Source: a virus. From it: DNA of 32,890 nt. Where the stretch lies: the IMG/VR virus record IMGVR_UViG_3300025769_000461, positions 1 to 32,890 of that record. One strand, 5' to 3'. Made by a program: the position numbers and the translations under genes. Position 1 is the stretch's first letter, and every line of letters begins with the position of its first letter. The notes below the pieces were generated by a model. That model worked only from the letters and a program-made list of their open reading frames with translations. It was not told the origin of the DNA and did no database searches. This document shows, one piece after another, positions 2,336 through 26,972 of this stretch.

Positions 2336-3148
2336 ATGCAGATAATCACACGCAAAGAAGCAAAAGAGAAAGGGCTGTCGCGCTACTTTACAGGGGAACC
2401 ATGCAAGCGTGGGCATATTGATGAAAGGCGCACTAATAGCGGCGATTGTGTCGAGTGTTTTTATTTAAGATATTGGGGTGATAGGGAAAGACCCAAAAAA
2501 ATAAAGGTGCCGGAACATCTGCAGCAATATCTAATAACAAGAAAGCAAGCAATATTAACTGGGCAAAAAACTTATTTCACGGGGCAGCCCTGCAAGCGCA
2601 ATCATGTTGCTAGTAGGTTCGTATCAAGTTCAGACTGCGTTATGTGCAACAGAGAAAAATCCCCTTGGAAAGAATGTTGCAACAAGTATGCTTATCGCTC
2701 AACAAAAGAACATAGAGACAAGCAACAAAGTGAGTACAGAAAAACTAACGCAAAGAAAGCGGTGCAAAGGGCTTCTTTATGGGCAAAAAATAATAGAGAA
2801 AGACGCAAAGAAATAGCAGAAGAATACAGGCGGCGAAACCCAGACGTTGTAAAACAACGTTCCACGCTTAGTCGCGCAATGAGGCGTAGACAGACATTGA
2901 AAAACTTAACTAGCGAACATTTTACTCACATTTATAACGAGTCTGCAAGGTTAACGAAAGAAACAGGGATACAGTATCACGTTGACCACTACTACCCACT
3001 AAGGGGTAAAACAATCTGCGGCCTAAACGTACCTTGGAATCTACAAATCATTACGGCAGAAGAAAACCTAGCCAAAGGCAATAAGATGCCAGAGGAGTTT
3101 TATGGCCCTAATCACACAATGAGTCAGCCGCTATCATTAGCCATGTAG
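2336..3148 (+). CDS. HNH endonuclease with two N-terminal zinc knuckles
   Basis: The C-terminal domain (about 205-250) carries the HNH pattern: H215, D217, H218, P221-L222, then the loop NVPWNLQ (231-237), N244 and N249. This is typical of phage HNH nucleases that nick or cut double-stranded DNA with one metal ion. The N-terminus holds an internal duplication, [17 protein letters not shown] (4-27) and [17 protein letters not shown] (67-90), each giving a C-x3-H...C-x2-C zinc site (C23/H27/C38/C41 and C86/H90/C101/C104). A basic helical linker joins the parts (110-190). The start has an AAGGAGGG site. The 3' end overlaps the convergent nuclease gene by 41 bases. A free-standing homing endonuclease is the main alternative to a packaging-associated role. 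Confidence 0.85.
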
Positions 3149-3518
3149 AGAAAGGCACAATCATGGTGGCGTCTTTGCCGGCATAATCAGGGCTCACACT
3201 CGACAGATAGATAACACAGACCACAGGCTGCCGGTCATATTTGTAAATAAGAACAGGTTGGGTGCCAGTTGCTAACGCAGCGGTAACTACCTGTTCCCAC
3301 CATTCCCGCTTATAGTAAATAGAACCATGGCTGTTGTATCGCTTACACTCGATTGTCCATCCTGGAAAACCAATCAAGTCACCGTGGTCACTAGCCCTAT
3401 ACTGTTCCAAATCCCGCTTCACCTCAATGTCATAGCCCGTGAACTCTTGAATCCACTGGTTGATTTTAGTGGCACATTCTCTTTCAAAGCTGGCACCTTT
3501 ATTACGACTGTTTGTCAT
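3108..3518 (-). CDS. PD-(D/E)XK nuclease, Holliday-junction-resolvase-like
   Basis: Numbered from the ATG at 3518, the motif residues are E12 (GASFERE), D47 (HGDLIG) and E57-x-K59 (IECKR), the metal-binding core of the PD-(D/E)XK fold. The length (136 aa) and spacing fit small phage resolvase-like enzymes. A GTG at 3527 would add three residues, but the ATG forms an ATGA overlap with the stop of the upstream gene and has GGGGAG in front, so it is preferred. It is the last gene of the repressor operon and overlaps the HNH gene tail to tail. It could resolve branched DNA or act in defence; substrate is not determined. Confidence 0.78.
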
Positions 3519-4339
3519 CCTGTACACTCCCCGCCATCAGCTTGGCAAAAGTAATCTGTCTCATCAAACACCCAATCCTGTTGACGCTCAACAAACTCAA
3601 CTAAACTAGCCATATCTCTCTTGCGTTCAAAGCGATTGTCTAATCTTTTCTCTGCATCAATCCACCATTGCGCTAACTCTGGGTGTTCCCGCGCCATCAT
3701 AGCAAGAGTTGCCTCGCTTTTGAGAAAACAGAAATCACAGTTGCCCTTCATGGTTTTACCATTGTGCATAGGTAGTCTTAAATCAAAAGGTTGCTGCATC
3801 CAGAAATCCTCGACATCGCGCTTGGTCTTGCCAGCATCACCTAATGGATAAAACAATTCTACATTGCCATCCTCTTTTTTGTTAAGGCGGCGGGGTTCAT
3901 CCGCCCTAATACCAACAGCGTTTTTCCATCGCTTCCAACCCAATGACTTCAAATACTTCTGACCTGTTTGCATTTTCAACACACCAGTGCAAAAACGAAA
4001 CCTTGCGTTAGGCAGCCTGCCGTACTTGTCAATCAGCTTGTCAAATGGTTCACCGTTACGGCTGCAACTGTTATGATTTACAATCTTAAAGTAGTTTTTG
4101 TTATCGCCTACTATGTCATACTCAAGCCACACTATAGGCACGTTCCATTTTTCAGAAACCTCTTGCACAAAATCCAAGGTCTGCGGCATTTCTCTGCCAG
4201 TGTTTTGGAACGCAACAACCGCGCTGTCAGGCAGCCCATCGTTAGCTTCCAATATTTTATACAGCATATAAGCTGACGTTCTGCCCCCAGAAAAACTAAT
4301 TTGCACGTTACCTTCTGGCAGAAGAAACGGATTGGTCAA
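3515..4339 (-). CDS. PAPS-reductase-like / N-type ATP pyrophosphatase family protein
   Basis: The PP-loop SFSGGRTS at residues 15-22 identifies the adenine nucleotide alpha-hydrolase family that includes PAPS reductase and DndC. Six cysteines stand out: C92, C117 (RFCTG), C201 and C204 (GNCDFC), C265 and C272. These could hold an iron-sulfur cluster or zinc, more like DndC-type or phage CysH-like proteins than a classical CysH. The start is TTG, overlapping the previous stop as TTGA, with TGGAG upstream. It is embedded in the repressor operon between a zinc protein and a nuclease. Possible roles are sulfur metabolism, nucleic-acid thiolation or defence. The fold assignment is firm; the reaction is not. 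Confidence 0.82.
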   Translation of the reverse strand: MTNPFLLPEGNVQISFSGGRTSAYMLYKILEANDGLPDSAVVAFQNTGREMPQTLDFVQEVSEKWNVPIVWLEYDIVGDNKNYFKIVNHNSCSRNGEPFDKLIDKYGRLPNARFRFCTGVLKMQTGQKYLKSLGWKRWKNAVGIRADEPRRLNKKEDGNVELFYPLGDAGKTKRDVEDFWMQQPFDLRLPMHNGKTMKGNCDFCFLKSEATLAMMAREHPELAQWWIDAEKRLDNRFERKRDMASLVEFVERQQDWVFDETDYFCQADGGECTG

Positions 4340-4551
4340 TGTTCAAACTCCACATGGATGAGAAACTCGGCTGCATCTTCTTCATGCACCTCACCGTCAC
4401 CGTCACAGAACTCACAAGTCTGCATGATACCCTTGATAAAGCCGCCGTTGGAGTGGTCAATTACCTCGACCTCAACCTCATACTCGCCGGCACCTCCACA
4501 GTCAGGACAATTAACGTAGTCGCTGGGAGTGGTGTTGTTCGTAGAAGTCAT
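4336..4551 (-). CDS. DnaJ-type zinc-finger small protein, 71 aa
   Basis: Two CxxCxGxG-like motifs, NCPDCGGAGEYE (14-25) and TCEFCDGDGEVH (45-56), form one DnaJ-style cysteine-rich zinc site with a 20-residue acidic/beta insert between them. There is no J domain, so it is a lone zinc module as often found in phages. It overlaps the repressor gene by 41 bases and the PAPS-reductase-like gene by 4. Possible roles are a metal-binding adaptor or redox partner for the next gene product, which is inference from coupling only. Confidence 0.75.
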   Translation of the reverse strand: MTSTNNTTPSDYVNCPDCGGAGEYEVEVEVIDHSNGGFIKGIMQTCEFCDGDGEVHEEDAAEFLIHVEFEH

Positions 4552-4720
4552 TAGCTTTTACCTTTCCATCTGTTGCTAAAGAAATACGCCGCATGGTTTC
4601 AGGCGTAGGGAAACGCTGGTTAGATAGTATGCGTGACACAGCAGAGACAGACAAGCCAGACTTCTTGGCGAACCGTCTTATGCTAAGCCCTTGTTCTTTA
4701 ATGTAATCCTGTAAATACAT
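4511..4720 (-). CDS. XRE/Cro-type repressor, 69 aa
   Basis: Residues 2-45 form a complete helix-turn-helix domain, with IRRFAKKSGLSVSAVSRILS at about 14-33 as the helix pair. The protein has no cleavable C-terminal domain, so it is Cro-like or a short CI-like repressor. It heads a leftward four-gene operon and faces the recombination operon that starts rightward at 4825. Promoters for both directions overlap at 4721-4769. The predicted leftward start of transcription coincides with its ATG, so its message may be leaderless. It is the best candidate for the lysis-lysogeny switch protein. Confidence 0.85.
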   Translation of the reverse strand: MYLQDYIKEQGLSIRRFAKKSGLSVSAVSRILSNQRFPTPETMRRISLATDGKVKANDFYEQHHSQRLR

Positions 4721-4723
4721 AAA

Positions 4724-4742
4724 AACACCATATATCAGTGTT
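4724..4742. promoter_or_regulatory. Candidate operator, AACAC-N9-GTGTT
   Basis: A perfect inverted repeat, AACAC and GTGTT, is separated by CATATATCA. It covers the predicted leftward -10 region and ends on the first bases of the rightward -35 TTGACA. Its position directly before a small XRE repressor gene makes it the natural autoregulatory site. Arms of only 5 bases make the call moderate. Confidence 0.55.
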
Positions 4743-4755
4743 GACAGGTTGGCAA
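4727..4755 (-). promoter_or_regulatory. Leftward promoter for the repressor operon
   Basis: On the minus strand TTGCCA (4755-4750) and TATGGT (4732-4727) are separated by 17 bases. Transcription would start at about 4720, the A of the repressor ATG, giving a leaderless message as known for lambda cI from PRM. No Shine-Dalgarno sequence could be placed between this promoter and the ATG. The match to consensus is moderate. Confidence 0.45.
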
Positions 4756-4769
4756 TGGGTTGTTAAAAC
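4741..4769 (+). promoter_or_regulatory. Rightward early promoter for the recombination operon
   Basis: TTGACA at 4741-4746 is a consensus -35. TTAAAA at 4763-4768 (16-base spacer) or TAAAAC at 4764-4769 (17-base spacer) serves as -10. Transcription would start near 4775 and leave a leader of about 50 bases before the ATG at 4825. The -35 abuts the inverted repeat at 4724-4742, so a bound repressor would block it. Confidence 0.6.
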
Positions 4770-4824
4770 AGAGTTGAGAGGTGGCGGGATTCCGACTGCC
4801 GCTGCCTCTCACATGGAGGGTCAA

Positions 4825-5721
4825 ATGGAATACGAAATACCAGACTATCGGAAAGAGTTTGGCTGTTATCACAACAGCGCATCAGGTGGTACGCAATCCA
4901 CTTATGAAAACCTGTTCAAACTATACATCCGCAAAGAATATAAAATGCAGTTCCCTATGTCAGCCAAGCCAAGGGCAGGGCAGATAGTACAGCAGGGCTG
5001 CGACCATTACTTTGGGCTACATGATTACTCGCCGGTTAGAGGGCCGCAAGAAGGCATGACGCTAGGCGAGGCCGTAAGGCATGCAATGACAGAGTATATG
5101 CAGTACAAACCTATCACTTGGGATGGCGGCAAGGACATGGAAGTCTTTGAAGCTTGCAAAGAAGTAATCCCAGAGATGATAGGCCACGCAGTCAAAGGCA
5201 CCGAAGAATACTTTGGTAAGAATGTAGAACTTGTTGGTGAATACCAGCGGGTTTTTAAAGATGACAGGCTAGACATACCAACCATTATGTTCTTGGACTA
5301 TGCGGATGACACAAGGCAGATTGACCTAAAGTGCAGCTTGCCAATGGCTAACCCCTTAAAAAAAGATGGCACTAGAACCTGGCGTATACCTAAACCAAAG
5401 ACTGAACCTACCTGGAATCAGGTAGCTCAGCAGGCCGTGTATTGGAAAGGCACCGGCCTAGTGCCGGCCTTGTTGTTTGTTACAGGTGAGGGCTACAACC
5501 TATGCACACCTGATAACTGCGATATGCTGAAGCCTGACGCATTAGAAGATGCTTATGAAAGAATTGTGCAGCGTTGGTTGACAATACAAAACCTAATGAA
5601 AGCTGCGCATGGCAACTGGAAAACTTTATTTGGCATGGTTGCACCTGACTTTGCAGAGATAGCGCAGCGTCACGGGCCTGAGATACTTGAGATTGCTAAA
5701 CAAACTTGGAGGGTTGAATGA
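4825..5721 (+). CDS. RecB/Cas4-type PD-(D/E)XK exonuclease
   Basis: Numbered from the ATG at 4825, the nuclease core is H61, E139, D158 (IMFLDY), D167-x-K169 (IDLK) and the QxxxY motif Q202-Y206, the pattern of RecB-family nucleases. The product (298 aa) is expected to resect double-stranded ends 5' to 3' and feed the annealing protein encoded at 6047. The open frame extends back to a GTG at 4738, but this overlaps the promoter. GGAGGG at 4815-4820 directly precedes the ATG at 4825, so that start is preferred. Its stop overlaps the next ATG (ATGA). Together with the annealing and SSB-like proteins it forms a lambda Red-like recombination module. Confidence 0.85.
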   Translation: MEYEIPDYRKEFGCYHNSASGGTQSTYENLFKLYIRKEYKMQFPMSAKPRAGQIVQQGCDHYFGLHDYSPVRGPQEGMTLGEAVRHAMTEYMQYKPITWDGGKDMEVFEACKEVIPEMIGHAVKGTEEYFGKNVELVGEYQRVFKDDRLDIPTIMFLDYADDTRQIDLKCSLPMANPLKKDGTRTWRIPKPKTEPTWNQVAQQAVYWKGTGLVPALLFVTGEGYNLCTPDNCDMLKPDALEDAYERIVQRWLTIQNLMKAAHGNWKTLFGMVAPDFAEIAQRHGPEILEIAKQTWRVE

Positions 5722-5885
5722 GGACACCGACTAAACAGCAAATAATAGACGCACTTAAAGTGCCGGAGATTAACGATAAAACTGACTCGATGGGCAGGGT
5801 TGTAAGGAAAAACAACTACTCACAATCTGCCGTACTTAAAAAAGATATGGCTGGAAAACCTAAAGGGAAGGGTAAATATGACTGA
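5718..5885 (+). CDS. Small basic protein of unknown function, 55 aa
   Basis: The ATG overlaps the exonuclease stop (ATGA) with GGAGGG upstream at 5708-5713. The product begins MRTPTKQQIIDALKVPEIND and ends in a Lys/Gly tail (KPKGKGKYD). It contains no Cys and no membrane segment. Its stop overlaps the next gene by 8 bases. The coupling to exonuclease and annealing protein suggests an accessory DNA-binding role, but no family is recognised. Confidence 0.65.
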   Translation: MRTPTKQQIIDALKVPEINDKTDSMGRVVRKNNYSQSAVLKKDMAGKPKGKGKYD

Positions 5886-6054
5886 GGTAGAACAGGAACA
5901 TGCGCAAGCAATTGACTTCACACAAGAGAGATTGAAGCGCATAGAGAGAGATATGGCACACATGCAAAAAGAGTTAGACGAACTCAAGACTATGCTTGCG
6001 TCATTCATGAAAGCAATAACCGATTACAATGATGAGGTAGATGAAGATGAGTGA
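5878..6054 (+). CDS. Short coiled-coil protein, 58 aa
   Basis: The ATG follows AAAGGGAAGGG at a good distance. Residues 15-48 form a heptad-like amphipathic helix (RLKRIERDMAHMQKELDELK), which predicts a coiled-coil dimer, and the tail is acidic (NDEVDEDE). It overlaps both neighbours in the recombination operon. No enzyme motif is present. A scaffold or modulator of the recombination proteins is possible but unproven. Confidence 0.65.
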   Translation: MTEVEQEHAQAIDFTQERLKRIERDMAHMQKELDELKTMLASFMKAITDYNDEVDEDE

Positions 6055-6736
6055 TTTAACACAAGCTATGACGGTGGTGGCTGATTACTACAAAGACCAC
6101 GCCATCAAGCAAAAGGGTGGCAAGATGTATCTGCAAGTAGTGCATCGTGTCGAGGCGTTTCGCCGTGTACTTGGCGCTGAGTACGGTGTTGATACTAAAA
6201 TTATTGTGGATGATGGGCATCGTGTAGTGGTCAAAGCTATAATCACAAACAAGGATGGCATCACAGTTGGTTCTGGCATGGCCGAAGAAATAAGAGGGCA
6301 AGGCCATGTCAATACAACTTCTGCCTTGGAAAATGCAGAAACGTCTGCTATAGGAAGGGCTTTGGCAAGCCTTGGTTTGTCAGGCGGTGAGTACGCATCT
6401 GCTAATGAAATGGATGCAGTGCCACGCAAAGCAGAGAATATCAAACAGAATCAGGCGGTGGCTGTCGAGCAAGACCCTCCAAGTAAGGCTCCGGCCCCGC
6501 CTGAGCCACCCAAAGAAATGACCCGTGAAGAACTTGATGAGAAGCACGACAAAGGTGTCTGGCAAGACATGAAGTCTCGCTTGCGTCAAATGAAGCATGT
6601 CAATAATGTTCATACTCTTTTTGAGTCTATGAAGCCTAAGATACAAGAAATTAAACAACGTAATCCAGAGGCAGCGCAGCACATCGTTAAGCTGTTTCTT
6701 GATGCAGAAGATAAATTAACAACAGGAGAAGCATAA
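6047..6736 (+). CDS. ERF/Rad52-like single-strand annealing protein
   Basis: The conserved segment around residues 90-111 (TSALENAETSAIGRALASLG) is the hallmark of a phage single-strand annealing protein group related to ERF/Rad52. It promotes annealing of complementary single strands during recombination and concatemer formation. The C-terminal third is a Pro/Glu-rich linker (PPSKAPAPPEPPKEMTREEL) followed by helices. An in-frame ATG at 6041 exists, but GAGG at 6034-6037 lies 9 bases before the ATG at 6047 and only 3 before 6041, so 6047 is preferred. It is placed between an exonuclease and an SSB-like gene, as expected for a Red-like system. Confidence 0.82.
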   Translation: MSDLTQAMTVVADYYKDHAIKQKGGKMYLQVVHRVEAFRRVLGAEYGVDTKIIVDDGHRVVVKAIITNKDGITVGSGMAEEIRGQGHVNTTSALENAETSAIGRALASLGLSGGEYASANEMDAVPRKAENIKQNQAVAVEQDPPSKAPAPPEPPKEMTREELDEKHDKGVWQDMKSRLRQMKHVNNVHTLFESMKPKIQEIKQRNPEAAQHIVKLFLDAEDKLTTGEA

Positions 6737-7068
6737 TGGCCTTGAGAAAAATCACCACTATTCGCTGCTTTGCGAATGACCCAGATAAAAAAGCAACGCA
6801 TAGCAACTCAAACTGGAAGCCCTATGTGGGCAAGGAACCAGGTGATGTGGTTCTAAGCAAGGATACGCGCCACCAAATCTCTGTCTTTGCTAATGACGAT
6901 GGGTCTATTGATGTAAGCATTAGCGAACGCATTGCAGAGGATTACACAAGTGGCGAAAGCATTGCCGCAAACGTAAGACAGGGCGGCATGCGTAAGATTG
7001 CTGAATCAATGGAAGCACCAGCCGCGCCAAAGCAGCAGATTGTTCTTGATGATGAAGTCCCTTTCTAA
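6736..7068 (+). CDS. SSB-like protein with acidic C-terminal tip
   Basis: The last residues, QQIVLDDEVPF, match the acidic amphipathic tip of bacterial SSB proteins (DDDIPF in E. coli), which recruits exonucleases, helicases and primases. The preceding 85 residues have beta-strand character but are short for a complete OB fold, so this may be a reduced phage SSB or a protein mimicking the tip. Its start overlaps the annealing-protein stop (TAATG). Context with exonuclease and annealing protein supports an ssDNA-related function. Confidence 0.65.
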   Translation: MALRKITTIRCFANDPDKKATHSNSNWKPYVGKEPGDVVLSKDTRHQISVFANDDGSIDVSISERIAEDYTSGESIAANVRQGGMRKIAESMEAPAAPKQQIVLDDEVPF

Positions 7069-7363: not shown

Positions 7364-7553
7364 TACACGACAAATGCTATGCAGCTTCTGCGGCAAAGAA
7401 CACTACATCAAAGATGGTGGGTGGGTTGTCGCTGGTGATAAAAGGATTTATTGCCACTTATTAGAGAGAAGCTGCCTAGTAACTAAATTAAAACAGGAGG
7501 GTCAAAGAAATGGGAAGCGTAATTCAATTTCCGAAATGTGGAACGAAATATAA
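7344..7553 (+). CDS. Small Cys-rich, probably zinc-binding protein, 69 aa
   Basis: The first 45 residues hold C13-x2-C16 (LCSFCGKEH) and C37-H38...C44, a plausible single zinc site. The ATG overlaps the previous gene by 20 bases, and the 3' end runs 44 bases into the next gene, which has its own strong ribosome site. The C-terminal 20 residues lie in this overlap and are low complexity. It fills an otherwise empty 146-base stretch, which supports it. Function unknown. Confidence 0.55.
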   Translation: MARRKVDTRQMLCSFCGKEHYIKDGGWVVAGDKRIYCHLLERSCLVTKLKQEGQRNGKRNSISEMWNEI

Positions 7554-7866
7554 TCCGGCAAACGGTAAATACTGGGATGTTTATTGCTGCGAACTGGAAG
7601 TAAAACAAATTGAAAAAATCGTGCATTACGTCAGCGGTTATAAACTACAATCGTTACGCAGGCATAACCGTAGAGTTGAATACGTTGATGCACGGCAGCT
7701 ATTCGTTCTCTTGTGTGTCAGGCACACATCATTTAGCTACCCAACAATAGGAAAGATATTAGCCCGTGACCACACTAGCGTTATGCACCTAGAGAAACGT
7801 AAAAAATCGACTCAACTGAAGGCAATGCTGAAGGAATCAAGGGTTATAATTAAATACTTGCTTTAA
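7510..7866 (+). CDS. DnaA domain IV-like DNA-binding protein
   Basis: The C-terminal half (about 58-105) resembles DnaA domain IV. VDARQLFVLLCVRH gives the first helices, and YPTIGKILARDHTSVMHLEK matches the DnaA signature in which RDHT contacts the DnaA box. The ATPase domain is absent, so the product cannot unwind an origin alone. It may bind DnaA-box-like sites in the phage origin or compete with host DnaA. AGGAGGG at 7496-7502 provides a strong start. It is the last gene of the rightward operon, and its stop shares TTAA with the convergent gene. Confidence 0.75.
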   Translation: MGSVIQFPKCGTKYNPANGKYWDVYCCELEVKQIEKIVHYVSGYKLQSLRRHNRRVEYVDARQLFVLLCVRHTSFSYPTIGKILARDHTSVMHLEKRKKSTQLKAMLKESRVIIKYLL

Positions 7867-9210: not shown

Positions 9211-9404
9211 TTTGATTCACTCCCGCACCAAACTGCAAAAGCGCCTGTTGCTGCGCCAACAATTGTGCTAACAAACGCTGTTTGCTGGGTAGTCGCAGAT
9301 GTACCAAGGCCCATGAACCAATCGCACACGTTCCAAGCCATAAGGGTAAACGCCAACATCATCAAACGCGGGATTATTTTATATTCTGTAAGTGCTTTAG
9401 CCAT
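9207..9404 (-). CDS. Two-TM holin candidate, 65 aa
   Basis: Two membrane segments lie at about 11-31 (PRLMMLAFTLMAWNVCDWF) and 43-60 (AFVSTIVGAATGAFAVWC), joined by a short polar turn, with a basic N-terminus and short charged C-terminus. This is the class II holin topology. The gene overlaps its neighbours by 8 and 4 bases in the lysis block, two genes upstream of small basic proteins and the endolysin. It is the strongest holin candidate by topology. Confidence 0.72.
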   Translation of the reverse strand: MAKALTEYKIIPRLMMLAFTLMAWNVCDWFMGLGTSATTQQTAFVSTIVGAATGAFAVWCGSESK

Positions 9405-9816
9405 CTCTATGCCCTCTTACTGTCGCCAACGCCTTATTAAACGAATGAAGTTCCGCTTTAGGTTCATCAAAAAGCTTGGGCGACACGCGCTTAGACTTTT
9501 GTAGCACCTGTTGAACGGGCATGAACAACGCTTTGCGGTGTTGATAACCGATAAGGCATAAAATGTCATAGTCTGCCACACTCCCAAGAATTTTATTCTT
9601 TTGTCCATGACCAAACTGAAAGTGGTACACCGGAAGCCTAGCATCTTTTTCGCCAGATAACTTCGCAGTCTTAACTTGTATCCTGATATATTCATCTGAC
9701 TTCCACGCTATTAAGTCAACTCTATCTTGTTGGCACATGGATACTCGCCAGCCTAATGATAACACAACACCGGCCGCATAGTATTCCCCTATCAGGCCAG
9801 TGGTTGTCTCACTCAT
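9397..9816 (-). CDS. PD-(D/E)XK nuclease-like protein, 139 aa
   Basis: The N-terminal part fits the archaeal resolvase/restriction-like pattern: E11 in GLIGEYYAAG, D34 in DRVDLIAW, and Q47-V-K49 in IQVKTA, where Gln replaces the usual Glu of the (D/E)XK motif. The fold is convincing; activity is probable but not assured because of the Gln. It is placed within the lysis block, overlapping both neighbours by 4-8 bases, which is unusual for a nuclease. It might resolve or trim DNA late in infection. Confidence 0.72.
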   Translation of the reverse strand: MSETTTGLIGEYYAAGVVLSLGWRVSMCQQDRVDLIAWKSDEYIRIQVKTAKLSGEKDARLPVYHFQFGHGQKNKILGSVADYDILCLIGYQHRKALFMPVQQVLQKSKRVSPKLFDEPKAELHSFNKALATVRGHRDG

Positions 9817-12349: not shown

Positions 12350-12738
12350 GCTAAGTCTCCGTGAATTACCGTACAATTAGAAGCCATGTCAATGTAACTG
12401 TAGGTAGAACCACTACTGTTATAGACACTTTCAAAGAAACATAATGCGGTAGTATCATTATCACTAGCACCTGCGTCGCTTTCACCATTAGTACAAAACA
12501 CTCTAAATGTACCTGTCGTACAGTTTGTAGAATAGTTTGCATTACTCATACTATTTGTATGGTTCTGCTTGAATTTTCCTAAGGTAGTATCTGTAGCTGT
12601 ACTAACATTTACGCTATCATCTACAGTGTCATTATATTGGTCATATTTCATCCAACCTTTCGCCGCACTCTGCCCAGTCAGCGTAACTGGACTGCTGCCA
12701 TCGCTCGCTACAATTGTATCTGCTTTTAATGTACTCAT
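12346..12738 (-). CDS. Fibre-like structural protein A (tandem paralogue), 130 aa
   Basis: The ATG at 12738 overlaps the oxygenase stop (ATGA), so two extra upstream codons (GTG GAA) are not used. The N-terminus [20 protein letters not shown] is a standard opening of marine phage fibre proteins. The core SAAKGWMKYDQ and SVNVSTATDTTLG and the end IHGDLA repeat in the next two genes. Cys content is high (5). Likely part of the receptor-binding set. Confidence 0.72.
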   Translation of the reverse strand: MSTLKADTIVASDGSSPVTLTGQSAAKGWMKYDQYNDTVDDSVNVSTATDTTLGKFKQNHTNSMSNANYSTNCTTGTFRVFCTNGESDAGASDNDTTALCFFESVYNSSGSTYSYIDMASNCTVIHGDLA

Positions 12739-13286
12739 TTCCACCTCGGTCCTTCAAACCATGCTACTAGACTAACTCTTGTACCACTCTCAACAGGTTT
12801 AACTCTGTGTTGCAGATAAGAAGGAAAAACTAAAACTGTTCCTCGCTTATTAGATATAGCATAATCAGGGGTTTCTGTCTCTGCAAATTCAAACATCCCG
12901 CCTGTGTAGTCTTCGGGCCCACTAAGCTGTACAGTTACAGACAATTTTCTGTCATATGCTTTGTTTTCAGACCAGTGAATGTCATGGTGCCAATCATAAT
13001 GACCAGCCTCTGATGCGTGGTACTCTGTGTACTGCACATCACCAACATTTTTTACATCAAATCCGAAAGCGTTTCGATTAGCTTCTTCGACATAACTCCA
13101 CAACAAATTCTTAACTTCATTGTCGTGCGTCAGCCACTTCACTTTAGAACGCCGCACATCTTCATTAACTTCACTATCTGAAAATATAGTCGCGTTCATA
13201 TCAGGCAGTGCGTCCGCCTTTTCTTTGATTAGCGCTAACTGATTATCAGATAAAGCACCACTCCATAATTGCCAGTTCTGCCTCAT
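12735..13286 (-). CDS. 2OG-Fe(II) oxygenase, prolyl 4-hydroxylase-like
   Basis: The metal triad is H100-x-D102 (in DWHHDIHW) and H160 (LQHRVKP), and R170 binds the 2-oxoglutarate carboxylate. [19 protein letters not shown] is the conserved core strand of the P4Hc/PiuC subgroup. The enzyme is cytoplasmic, 183 aa, with no signal peptide. It uses 2-oxoglutarate and O2 to hydroxylate a substrate, in this subgroup usually a prolyl or similar residue. Its ATG overlaps the stop of the collagen-like fibre gene (ATGA), and its stop overlaps the next fibre-like gene. A fibre substrate is therefore likely by context but unproven. Confidence 0.88.
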
Positions 13287-16240
13287 ACTACCGTCCAGGT
13301 TTCTCCAGTGCCAACCGTTACAGTTACACCAGTATTGATTGTGATTGGGCCAGCCGACATTGCGTTTTTGTTATTTGTAACCGTGTAGTTTGTGGTCACT
13401 GTTTGACCATTTTCATAGAAGATTTGGTCAGAACCACCGCCTGTTGCACCAGCCGCTATGCCGGTTAATCCAGAGCCATCGCCAGTTACTGCCGTTGCAG
13501 CTAGTGTGCCTTGGACAGTTACGCCTGTAGCTGTCGTGTACATTCTACTGCTATTATTATAATAGAACCTCGCACCACTGTCCTTGTCAAACTTGCCCAT
13601 CATTTCATTGTTGTCGGCACGAAATTCAATGCCAGAACCGTTTGACTTTATGTAAAGTGAACCAGTGCCAGTTTCTTCAATTATGGAATTTGTGCCATCG
13701 TGGGAAATTTGTAAATCGCCGCCTGTTGCACTGCCAAAAGTTGCTTTGTCATTGTCAGCAAAGACGATATCGTTTCCGTTGGACTGCAAGTCACCGCCCA
13801 GCTGCGGAGTGGTGTCAACAACAATATTAGTTGCCCCATCGGGCCCTGTTGGGCCTGTAGGTCCAGTTAACCCCGTTGGGCCTGTAGGCCCAGTTGGGCC
13901 ATCTGCCCCTGTAGGACCTGTGGGGCCGGTAGGGCCGGTTGGACCCGCAACCGTTGAGTCTGCACCCGCAGGGCCAGTGGGGCCAGTTGGGCCAGTAGGT
14001 CCAGTTGCGCCGCGTAAATCTCCAGTGCTAAAGCCAAGGCCGTCATCAGAGGTGAAGGTAACTACACCAGTAGGCGCAGAGTAGCTACCCCCAGTAAAGC
14101 CGTCACCATCTGCACCGGCTGGGCCAGTAGGCCCAGTTGCGCCCGCAGGCCCAGTTGCGCCGGTAGGCCCAGTTGGGCCAGCAGCACCATCAGCACCACT
14201 AGGTCCTGTTGGGCCTGTAGGCCCAGTTGGGCCTGTTGCCCCTCTTAAATCACCTGTGCTAAACCCCAATCCATCGTTTGATGTGAATGTGACAACGCCA
14301 GTTGGCGCACTGTATGAACCACCGGTAAATCCGTCTCCTGTTGGCCCAGTTGCGCCCGCAGGCCCAGTCGGGCCTGTCGGACCTGTTAGACCAGTGGGGC
14401 CGGTTGGACCTGGTGGTCCCGCCACTGTACTGTCTGCGCCATCCGCACCGGCTGGACCAGTCGCGCCGGTAGGCCCTGTTGGGCCTGTTGCACCGGTTGG
14501 CCCAGGCGGCCCTGCAACTGTGCTATCTGCACCAGTTGGGCCTGTAGGCCCAGTAGGGCCAGTAAGACCGGTTGGGCCTGGAGGCCCTGCAACCGTGCTA
14601 TCCGCGCCTGTCGGTCCAGTTGGCCCTGTTGGGCCTGTAGGGCCTGGAGGCCCAGCTACTGTTGAATCTGCGCCAGTCGGGCCTGTAGCGCCAGTTGGGC
14701 CAGTCGGGCCGGTTGGACCAGGAGGCCCAGCTACTGTAGAGTCTGCACCAGTCGGCCCTGTGGGACCAATTGGTCCGGTAAGACCTATCGGTCCTGTTAG
14801 ACCAGTTGGGCCTGTGTCGCCAGTATCACCTTGTATTCCTTGTGGCCCAGTGGGGCCTGTTGGGCCAGTGGGGCCGGTTAATCCGGTAGGTCCGATGGGG
14901 CCAGTTGGACCCGTAGGGCCCGTATCGCCCTTATCACCAGTTCTGGCAAATGTGATTATAATATCTTCATTGGCTGAAAATGATGTGGCCGAACCGCTTA
15001 CATAAGAACAAGTAACCTTAAAATAACCTGTGGCCTCCGAAACGCTACTAATTGTAAGCAATGCAAAGTCATCTGCGTTTAGCCTGTTAGAAACTCTAAA
15101 GTGACCTTTGATTGTGCTTGTGCTGTCATCAATAGTTCGCAAAAATGACTGTATGTCTGTGCTATCATTGTCCGTATCATCAATGTACATTTGTGTCGCT
15201 GATGAAATATTTGTATTGTTAAACCTAATTTTACCGGTGCCAGGGTCAGAGTCTGTCGTGGTTGTGCTAAATGTGTAATCAAATGTAGCGCCGCCAAAGT
15301 TGCCATCAGGTCCTGTAGGGCCAGTAGAACCTGTCGGGCCTGTAGACCCCGTGTTTCCTTGGATTCCCTGCGGTCCAGTCGGCCCTGTGGGGCCTGTGGG
15401 GCCAACATTTCCCTGACTACCTTGTGGGCCAGTTGGTCCAGTTGGGCCTGTTGGGCCAGGCACAGTTGAGTCCGCACCTGTAGGTCCAGTTGGTCCAGTT
15501 GGGCCAGTCGGGCCAGTCGGGCCTGCTACAGTCGAGTCAGCCCCAGTTGGGCCAGTAGGTCCAGTTGGGCCAGTCGGGCCTGTATTGCCAGTAGGGCCTA
15601 TTGCGCCGGTAGGCCCAGTTGGGCCAATCGGACCGGCAGCGCCGGTTGTTCCTCGCGGCAAAACAAAGTCAAAAACTGCTATAGAACCTGTGCCGGAATT
15701 TGTAACTGACGCATCCACTCCAGCCGGTGCCGTTGACACAGAACCGACAGACAAACTACCAGCTTCAGGTGCGCCGGTTGTTTCGTTAAAGCCTAAAATA
15801 CCACCCTTTAAATCTGCGTTAGAAGGAAGTTCTATAGCGGTAGTGTCTGTTTCTTTTCTAACTAATGCGCGGCCGACTTTCTCATCAATTTGCTGCATAG
15901 CTAATGTTAATCTGTCTAGCGCGTTTTCATGCGTTTCGGCTGGAAAAGGGTCGTTAGCGGTATAATCTGTGGGCTGCGTAATACTCATATTGCGCTTTAA
16001 AAACACTTTTTCCGTGTTTGATGGCGCAGACACAAATGTAACTGTGCCTCCAGAAGTCAGGCCAGCGCCAGACACACTGTAATCAGTTGTCAGCGTCTGT
16101 ACTGTTTCAACACCAGTGGTGTTATTAACAACAATAACTTTGATATCAGCGTCTGCTAAAATCTCAAACGTGTAATCAAAGTCTACGATGATTCCATCGC
16201 CATCGTAACTATTTGTAGTTGTGGTTGTGCTTACTGACAT
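13283..16240 (-). CDS. Collagen-like tail fibre, 985 aa
   Basis: Residues 1-160 form a particle-attachment domain shared with the fibre gene upstream ([20 protein letters not shown] at 91-110). Four collagen-like blocks of Gly-X-Y triplets, mainly Gly-Pro-Thr, occupy about 199-314, 435-636, 668-713 and 745-803. Between them are a 120-residue beta insert (315-434) and two near-identical inserts of 31 residues (637-667 and 714-744). The tail (804-985) has the [19 protein letters not shown] repeat type and a terminal strand set ending [19 protein letters not shown], common in marine phage fibres. It is expected to trimerise and bind the host surface. A prolyl-hydroxylase-like gene follows with 4-base overlap. 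Confidence 0.9.
13832..14239 (-). repeat. Collagen-like blocks 3 and 4 with twin insert
   Basis: Two short blocks (residues 668-713 and 745-803) flank the second copy of a 31-residue insert (714-744). The first copy of that insert lies just before block 3 at 14240-14332. Together they form a block-insert-block duplication. Confidence 0.8.
14333..14938 (-). repeat. Collagen-like block 2 coding repeats
   Basis: About 67 triplets encode residues 435-636, the longest block. It contains five copies of an [13 protein letters not shown] unit spaced 22-31 residues apart, at 499, 524, 546, 571 and 602, each with Pro in the Y position. Confidence 0.85.
15299..15646 (-). repeat. Collagen-like block 1 coding repeats
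   Basis: About 39 Gly-X-Y codon triplets encode residues 199-314 of the fibre, mostly GPT, with two ADSTV interruptions. The DNA is a degenerate 9-base repeat rich in GGC/CCA, so recombination slippage is expected. Confidence 0.85.
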
Positions 16241-25998: not shown

Positions 25999-26595
25999 TT
26001 AGAACCTTGAATTTATAAATGAGTCTGCAATGATTTTGTCAGGCACACCTTCGGCAGCGTCCATAGACCTGGCCTCTGCTAACCTTGCTTGATATAACTG
26101 AAACATTTGTTGCGCAACAGAATTACTGCCAGTGATGGCATACGCTACTTCTGATGCCAGCTTGTGTGCAACTGTGCTAGAAAGCAAACTGTCGTATTGT
26201 TCAGTGTCAGTTAGCCTGCTTACATAAATAATCTTACAAACGTCTTCGTCCGTTAGTATCTTGCGGCCTTCTACTTTGAACATATTTTGGGAATCGTATG
26301 CAGCAATGTGGTTGTCTACATTTGTATTCCAGAACGATAATACCCTCAAACAATAAGGATTAGTCGGTAATGTGTACTGGTACTTAAAACCAAAGTCTGG
26401 TGCCACGCTATCACGCGCCAAAGCTTTTCTAGTGATGGCTGCGTTCCAAGGGTGCGCTCTTAGCACTTGGTCACGCACAGTTTCAAACCTACGGTTACAT
26501 AACCTAGCTTCTTTTGAGTTTTCTGTCAGAGCCGTGATAGTTGCTGCGCCAAGCAAATCCATAGCTTCATTACAAATATCAACAACTGATGGCAT
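25999..26595 (-). CDS. Tail tubular protein A (T7 gp11-like adaptor)
   Basis: The protein is 198 aa, near T7 gp11 (196). The sequence SKEARLCNRRFETVRDQVLR and AHPWNAA is characteristic of the gp11 family, which forms a twelve-fold adaptor between portal and nozzle. It overlaps the nuclease gene upstream by 17 bases and leads directly to the gp12-like gene. Confidence 0.92.
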   Translation of the reverse strand: MPSVVDICNEAMDLLGAATITALTENSKEARLCNRRFETVRDQVLRAHPWNAAITRKALARDSVAPDFGFKYQYTLPTNPYCLRVLSFWNTNVDNHIAAYDSQNMFKVEGRKILTDEDVCKIIYVSRLTDTEQYDSLLSSTVAHKLASEVAYAITGSNSVAQQMFQLYQARLAEARSMDAAEGVPDKIIADSFINSRF

Positions 26596-26947
26596 GGTTC
26601 ACTAGCCTTTCAACTCTAATCAGTACGCCCTTGCTTAAATTCTTCTCGCCGCCAATGACAGGGCCGCGTTTTCTGTATGCTTCTCTTGCTATCGTTTTCA
26701 ACTTTTCTGTTGGTAATAATACCACAGTTTCGTCATCAAGTATAAACGCCCAATGCGTTGCTTGCGTTGTTGCCAACCCGCTAGGCTTGTTTCTACAAAA
26801 AAACTCCACAAACACATTACCAGTTCGTGAAGCTACAAAATCTCTTTTCACCTCTATAGTGTTTCCACTTAATATGCCTCCAAGCCATTGCTCAGCTATT
26901 TGGCCTACTTCTAAATCCCAGCGGAAGTCTCCGCACGGTTTCATCAT
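26579..26947 (-). CDS. PD-(D/E)XK nuclease-like protein in the capsid cluster, 122 aa
   Basis: From the ATG at 26947, the motif IEVKRD gives E32-x-K34, with TGNVFVEFF (42-50) after it and D11/E13 before it. This is the pattern of small phage PD-(D/E)XK proteins with EVKRD and TGN-(F/Y)-V-E. The frame opens 12 bases earlier at TTG, but GGAGGGTAAC lies directly before the ATG. It is inserted between major capsid and tail genes; role in packaging, DNA trimming or host DNA degradation is not known. Confidence 0.72.
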   Translation of the reverse strand: MMKPCGDFRWDLEVGQIAEQWLGGILSGNTIEVKRDFVASRTGNVFVEFFCRNKPSGLATTQATHWAFILDDETVVLLPTEKLKTIAREAYRKRGPVIGGEKNLSKGVLIRVERLVNHAISC

Positions 26948-26972
26948 GTTACCCTCCAATTAGGCAGTGAAT

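Follow-up and report, generated by a model that had tools for sequence, protein, structure and literature searches.

NinC of a marine phage, a PP-loop enzyme in an exchangeable operon slot, is a candidate DNA-modifying enzyme

The ninC gene of phage lambda was sequenced four decades ago, and our literature search returned no report of a function for it. Members of the NinC family occur in lambda, in many other phages, and in integrative elements. Lambda NinC (Orf290) contains a PP-loop, the motif GIRADEPxR, and C-terminal cysteines, along with C111, C187, and C190, and its gene follows that of a small Cro-like regulator in an early operon that also encodes a junction endonuclease. These features recur in the DNA analyzed here, the 32,890 bases of marine phage record IMGVR_UViG_3300025769_000461 from IMG/VR, which may be a fragment and which we refer to in its entirety as the window. 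The window NinC is about 35% identical to lambda NinC over 77% of the protein, but the neighbors differ: lambda NinC is accompanied by NinB and NinG, whereas the window carries a zinc protein and an Hjc-like nuclease. Lambda deleted for the whole nin region continues to form plaques on laboratory hosts (PMC10695390).

Genes for phage "PAPS reductases" are frequently assigned to sulfur metabolism (e.g., PMC11318856), although a 2024 paper stated that they "deserve further investigation" and noted a kinship with DndC and SspD in general terms (PMC11437467). SspD, from the SspABCD phosphorothioation system, has its catalytic residues and three cysteines in common with the window enzyme, and DndC and BrxP belong to the same PP-loop superfamily. 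For DndC, a three-cysteine 4Fe-4S center and a cysteine dyad have been described, and IscS can replace DndA (PMC10853773). CmoY resembles the role we propose for NinC in that it is ATP-dependent and follows a methyltransferase in acting on phage DNA, ligating glycine to 5-carboxymethylcytosine, but it is an asparagine-synthetase homolog outside the NinC family (PMC12783734). Finally, and independently, a family of marine mobile elements has an accessory module in which methyltransferases occur together with PAPS-reductase-like genes and Mom-like ones (PMC12324425).

The four-gene leftward unit

Four overlapping leftward genes lie at positions 3108-4720, as a preliminary description of this DNA had placed them. 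Because the genes overlap by 41 bases (XRE/zinc), 4 bases (zinc/NinC), and 4-13 bases (NinC/nuclease), they are likely to form an operon, and since close homologs occur in many phages, the arrangement is not due to chance. The unit is situated in an early replication and recombination region that resembles the lambda cro-O-P-nin operon. A divergent early unit on the plus strand (4738..7068) encodes a PD-(D/E)XK-like protein, an ssDNA-annealing (Sak/ERF-like) protein, and an SSB, assigned by synteny with phage C72C1, in which the annealing protein and SSB are annotated. At the other end, an Endonuclease VII/HNH-like gene (2336..3148, plus strand; phrog_1035, 1.1e-23) converges on the operon and overlaps its 3' end. 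No DNA polymerase or primase was recognized across the 32.9 kb of the window. Its structural genes are podovirus-like, and at the DNA level only a short part of the tail-fiber region of a Puniceispirillum phage matches it closely among phage records.

The first gene of the unit (4511..4720, minus strand) encodes a 69-residue XRE/Cro-like regulator (HTH_3, E=2.5e-10), homologs of which stand first in the corresponding unit of 37 relatives. Just upstream is a promoter-like site, TTGCCA-17-TATGGT (4727..4755, minus strand), which is weak, such sites being no commoner than in shuffled sequences. The region of the divergent promoters was searched for operator repeats and offered no more than one imperfect inverted repeat (4775-4811). 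Another small HTH regulator is encoded on the opposite strand at 1965-2138, has homologs in 24 related loci, and may belong to a switch made of two regulators. The second gene (4336..4551, minus strand) encodes a 71-residue protein with a putative DnaJ-type zinc module (Pfam DnaJ_CXXCXGXG, E=4.9e-6, below the Pfam cut-off), comprising two CxxCxGxG motifs whose residues C15, C18, C46, and C49 are invariant in 19 homologs. We rejected this protein as a NinC partner, the zinc gene being common in units that lack NinC; in C72C1, the gene that precedes NinC encodes a 63-residue protein free of cysteines, and the R6L "chaperone" in the vicinity of NinC is not of the CxxCxGxG type.

The last gene (3108..3527, minus strand) encodes a PD-(D/E)XK nuclease (PDDEXK_15, 5.2e-14), as previously described, which can now be specified as Hjc-like and of the Holliday-junction-resolvase type (phrog_244, 4.6e-18). 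Its start is more likely the conserved ATG at 3518, which overlaps the NinC stop codon as ATGA. Residues E15, D50, E60, and K62, corresponding to an E-D-ExK site, are invariant in 35 homologs, and PHROGs annotates the family as a junction resolvase. The predicted structure (pLDDT 88.4) finds archaeal Hjc/Hje proteins in all of its top 24 Foldseek matches and aligns with 1gef in VIA-align over 104 residues at 2.9 A (Z 10.4). Although a PDB sequence search with the resolvase profile gave no match, the modeled fold and active site look like those of archaeal Hjc-type resolvases, and we designate the protein a predicted resolvase.

Several other genes of the window are worth recording. An additional PD-(D/E)XK endonuclease (PDDEXK_5, 5.7e-7) is encoded at 9397-9816, and among the structural genes, at 26579-26959, is a gene whose product by eye resembles a 127-residue "EVKRD" (PD-(D/E)XK-like) protein; in other phages (L213-L216, L223, L243) the gene for this protein lies directly downstream of the resolvase. 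The rightward early unit ends in a stand-alone DnaA C-terminal DNA-binding domain (7510-7866, 4.5e-13). Amid the tail-fiber genes, a 2OG-Fe(II) oxygenase gene (12735-13286, 7.6e-16) adjoins one for a long collagen-like GPTGPT repeat protein (13283-16240).

The NinC enzyme and its relatives

The third gene of the unit (3515..4339, minus strand) begins with a TTG that is part of the terminal TTGA of the zinc gene and encodes a predicted PP-loop ATP pyrophosphatase of the NinC family (phrog_424, E=4.8e-56, residues 9-273). The earlier label "PAPS-reductase-like" agrees with a PAPS_reduct match (1.6e-6) but is better narrowed to the family of lambda Orf290. The window protein displays an SFSGGRTS loop, C117, R145xDE, C201xxC204, and the C-terminal C265/C272 pair; the SFSGGRTS loop, C..K, GIRADE, and CxxC are all found in lambda NinC as well. 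When NinC proteins are compared with six SspDs, SGG..S, TG.E, C117, K122, R145.DE..R151, C201, and C204 are invariant or nearly so across both groups. C265 and C272 are conserved in 45/45 and 41/41 window-type sequences, respectively, that reach that far.

Profile comparisons place the enzyme more precisely. A window-type profile built from 51 homologs assigns 108 bits to lambda NinC and 52-67 bits to six true SspDs and does not match E. coli CysH. Conversely, with the PADLOC SspD profile the window protein reaches 71 bits (3e-20), lambda NinC 52, and CysH 14, as opposed to 307-456 for true SspDs; the window protein has no DndC profile match, and BrxP reaches only 25 bits. The protein also lacks the ECGLH C-terminus that holds the catalytic cysteine, E. 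coli CysH ending in ECGLHEG. Judged by these comparisons, the window enzyme is a relative of SspD but not an SspD, because its score with the SspD profile is so far below those of the real ones, and it is neither a DndC nor a CysH. The suggested kinship with PP-loop enzymes of DNA phosphorothioation is thus borne out by profiles and motifs, with SspD closer than DndC.

The AlphaFold model of NinC (pLDDT 89.8) has an N-type ATP pyrophosphatase fold. Its best matches among solved structures are APS/PAPS reductases (Z about 12.9), followed by the [4Fe-4S] tRNA thiolase NcsA and the sulfur transferase LarE (Z about 10.9); neither Foldseek nor VIA-align listed an SspD or DndC chain, which does not speak against that kinship. 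When the PDB was searched by sequence alone, the NinC protein and profile returned a chance-level retroviral integrase match, which we discarded as a zinc-binding coincidence, and weak CysH matches. The cysteines common to NinC and SspD fit an ATP-using sulfur transferase that may also carry a cluster.

The usual partners of such enzymes are missing from the window, as the preliminary description had stated. A PADLOC scan of its 47 proteins found no defense system and a lone SspD-like match, and within this possible fragment neither a desulfurase nor SspA, SspB, SspC, DndA, DndD, or DndE was found. A DUF4007/SspB search of the window also gave no match, but its controls gave none either, so this negative carries no weight.

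An exchangeable slot and fusions with methyltransferases

A resolvase homolog is present near NinC, on either side, in 41/84 NinC loci, which suggested a fixed pair. The reciprocal scan rejects this pairing, as only 12/80 resolvase loci contain NinC and 68/80 do not. What recurs is a frame of regulator, zinc protein, and resolvase in which NinC is an optional cassette. The gene set of the preliminary description is accordingly found in other phages as to its frame but not as to NinC, and its expectation that free variation of the neighbors would speak against a functional unit applies to NinC, which close relatives lack or have exchanged for another gene, whereas the frame is conserved. Among 53 resolvase-query loci in which regulator and resolvase are both visible, the space between them holds NinC in 8/53, an adenine-type methyltransferase (phrog_799, E about 1e-54) in 11/53, and neither NinC nor a recognized modification gene in 34/53. 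One locus of the NinC set (L007) has both NinC and the methyltransferase, and in C72C1 an annotated DNA methyltransferase lies between repressor and NinC.

The exchange can be followed at the level of DNA. Three groups of resolvases linked at 90% identity each include versions with NinC and with the methyltransferase. Locus L187 is 89% identical to the window as far as base 4332 and 93% identical from 3517 on, with NinC alone missing, and in L246 and L251 an identity of about 85% extends to base 4336, after which the phrog_799 DNA methyltransferase begins. As these alignments break at the borders of NinC, the cassette is swapped gene for gene, at the overlapping stop and start codons.

Elsewhere in the family, NinC is fused to DNA methyltransferases. 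A 479-residue NinC-Dam protein is encoded by a single ORF in six Vibrio phages with identical sequence, one of them deposited as "Dam methyltransferase with PAPS reductase domain." The single-ORF fusions comprise NinC-Dam (PF05869) and NinC-D12 (PF02086), and there are triple fusions, C5-NinC-Dam (L278, 968 residues) and C5-NinC-D12 (L315, 1099 residues). Examples of every type were confirmed with Pfam, and the fusions fall into five sequence groups, although most were retrieved with the Vibrio NinC-Dam fusion as query, so that the sampling is skewed. In a scan with a Dam query, 7/23 Dam ORFs were fused to NinC, some of them on contigs already counted. All fusions seen belong to the lambda-type branch of NinC; none occurred among 80 close homologs retrieved with lambda NinC or among 83 window-type NinC proteins. 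In the fusion loci, NinB, NinE to NinI, O, P, and Q were not fused to the methyltransferase domains tested. One C5-Dam double methyltransferase of the L441-L462 set lacks NinC, while its relatives carry C5-NinC-Dam, so NinC looks like a module insertable between C5 and Dam. Of a different kind are an 824-residue protein (L320:2579-5053) with NinC at the C-terminus of a RecE/exonuclease-VIII-type protein, which points to recombination, and a 787-residue ORF (L328:2501-4864) in which about 500 residues without a Pfam or PHROG match precede NinC.

Adjacency adds little to this picture. Genes for Mom-like proteins (phrog_1384, "Mom-like DNA modification protein," 1.2e-36; Pfam Mom above the cut-off for the phage copy and below it for the bacterial copy) lie near NinC in 6/83 phage loci and, within 3 kb, in 18/80 bacterial loci, the latter often carrying DUF3577 genes of integrative elements. 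At L135:6746-7354 and in similar bacterial loci with DUF3577, the Mom-like gene comes immediately after NinC or overlaps it. A methyltransferase or Mom gene is nevertheless found within 3 kb in 17/83 NinC loci versus 14/68 resolvase loci without NinC, so we rejected an enrichment of methyltransferases near NinC, and adjacency alone proves nothing. Full neighbor statistics were impeded by noisy greedy ORF calls in high-GC bacterial loci. The argument for DNA modification is therefore carried by the fusions and the slot exchange.

Candidate functions of NinC

On balance, we lean toward NinC being a DNA-modifying enzyme, probably a sulfur-adding one, that acts on the phage's own DNA and most likely counters restriction. 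DNA as the target is fairly likely, and the choice of sulfur as the added group probably holds by analogy with homologous enzymes. NinC would bind ATP through its N-type PP-loop and activate its target by adenylation, with sulfur probably delivered from a [4Fe-4S]-type site whose ligands would be C117, C201, and C204. C265 and C272 might serve as sulfur carriers, and an IscS-like cysteine desulfurase of the host could be the donor. The enzyme would act early in infection on phage DNA, as DNA methyltransferases and Mom do, and the modified DNA would most likely escape host restriction. We count in favor the homology with SspD, the fusions, the slot exchange, the Mom-like neighbors, and the precedent of CmoY; against it stand the lack of enrichment by adjacency, the restriction of the fusions to the lambda-type branch and their retrieval with a fusion query, the missing partner genes, and the dispensability of nin. 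The plaquing of nin-deleted lambda fits an accessory anti-restriction role but is no proof of one. The more specific proposal that NinC is a stand-alone DNA-sulfurating enzyme, which would dispense with Dnd/Ssp partners, borrow the host cysteine desulfurase, and work with or instead of DNA methyltransferases, we hold only tentatively, at somewhat less than an even chance.

NinC could also modify DNA without sulfur, as a PP-loop ligase that adenylates a modified base or carboxyl group, the product of a partner (methyltransferase or Mom-like enzyme), and attaches an amine to it. The fusions to three methyltransferase families and the Mom-like partners suit such a ligase, CmoY catalyzes a comparable joining in phage DNA (PMC12783734), and the NinC fold is common to many N-type ATP pyrophosphatases that do not handle sulfur. 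However, no role is known in such ligases for the three cysteines common to NinC and SspD, no methyltransferase able to make the handle was recognized in the window, and we consider this explanation unlikely. A part in recombination or replication, in which NinC would modify or handle intermediates together with the Holliday-junction resolvase, is less probable still. It would account for the resolvase adjoining NinC in the window, the lambda operon shared with NinB and NinG/Rap, the proximity to RusA in RHph_I1_23, and the RecE-type exonuclease fusion in L320, and part of the NinC neighborhood is equally well explained by an association with recombination genes. Yet the resolvase is no dedicated partner of NinC, because most resolvase loci lack it and methyltransferases occupy the same slot.

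Annotation practice assigns such genes to host metabolism (PMC11318856), and the PAPS_reduct match, together with the CysH/APS reductase folds that head the PDB matches, is what one would expect of an auxiliary PAPS/APS reductase (CysH) raising the cysteine supply, or of an RNA-thiolating enzyme. The NinC profile misses E. coli CysH, the ECGLH C-terminus is absent, and the fusion partners are DNA methyltransferases; sequence and fusions thus make CysH-type sulfate assimilation unlikely, and we give the metabolic and RNA-thiolating roles taken together little credence. The preliminary description had instead proposed an exclusion or restriction module, expressed in lysogens against other phages, on the grounds that an XRE regulator comes first in the unit and a nuclease adjoins a relative of DndC and SspD. 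This we find hardly probable at all: lysogenic exclusion is unsupported because no Phage_integrase was found in the window, a possible fragment, or in the complete relatives C72C1 and CRP-821, and PADLOC found no system beyond the SspD-like match. The phage may still be lysogenic in some other mode. In addition, the gene set is not fixed, the nuclease looks like a resolvase, and the unit lies in the early region.

We rate the NinC family and its general kinship with DndC and SspD as already known. What appears to be new are the methyltransferase fusions and slot exchange, of which we found no report in the open literature (subscription journals lay outside the search), and a candidate PP-loop enzyme of DNA modification that stands apart from its customary partners. 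Fusion with three methyltransferase families, combined with gene-exact exchange, provides a concrete candidate function for lambda ninC. If NinC modifies DNA, the annotation of many phage genomes would change. If the added group is sulfur, NinC would represent a minimal route to DNA thiolation, relevant to restriction and to phosphorothioate-sensing defenses, and if stand-alone sulfuration holds, phage DNA doubly marked with sulfur and methyl groups would be widespread and so far overlooked.
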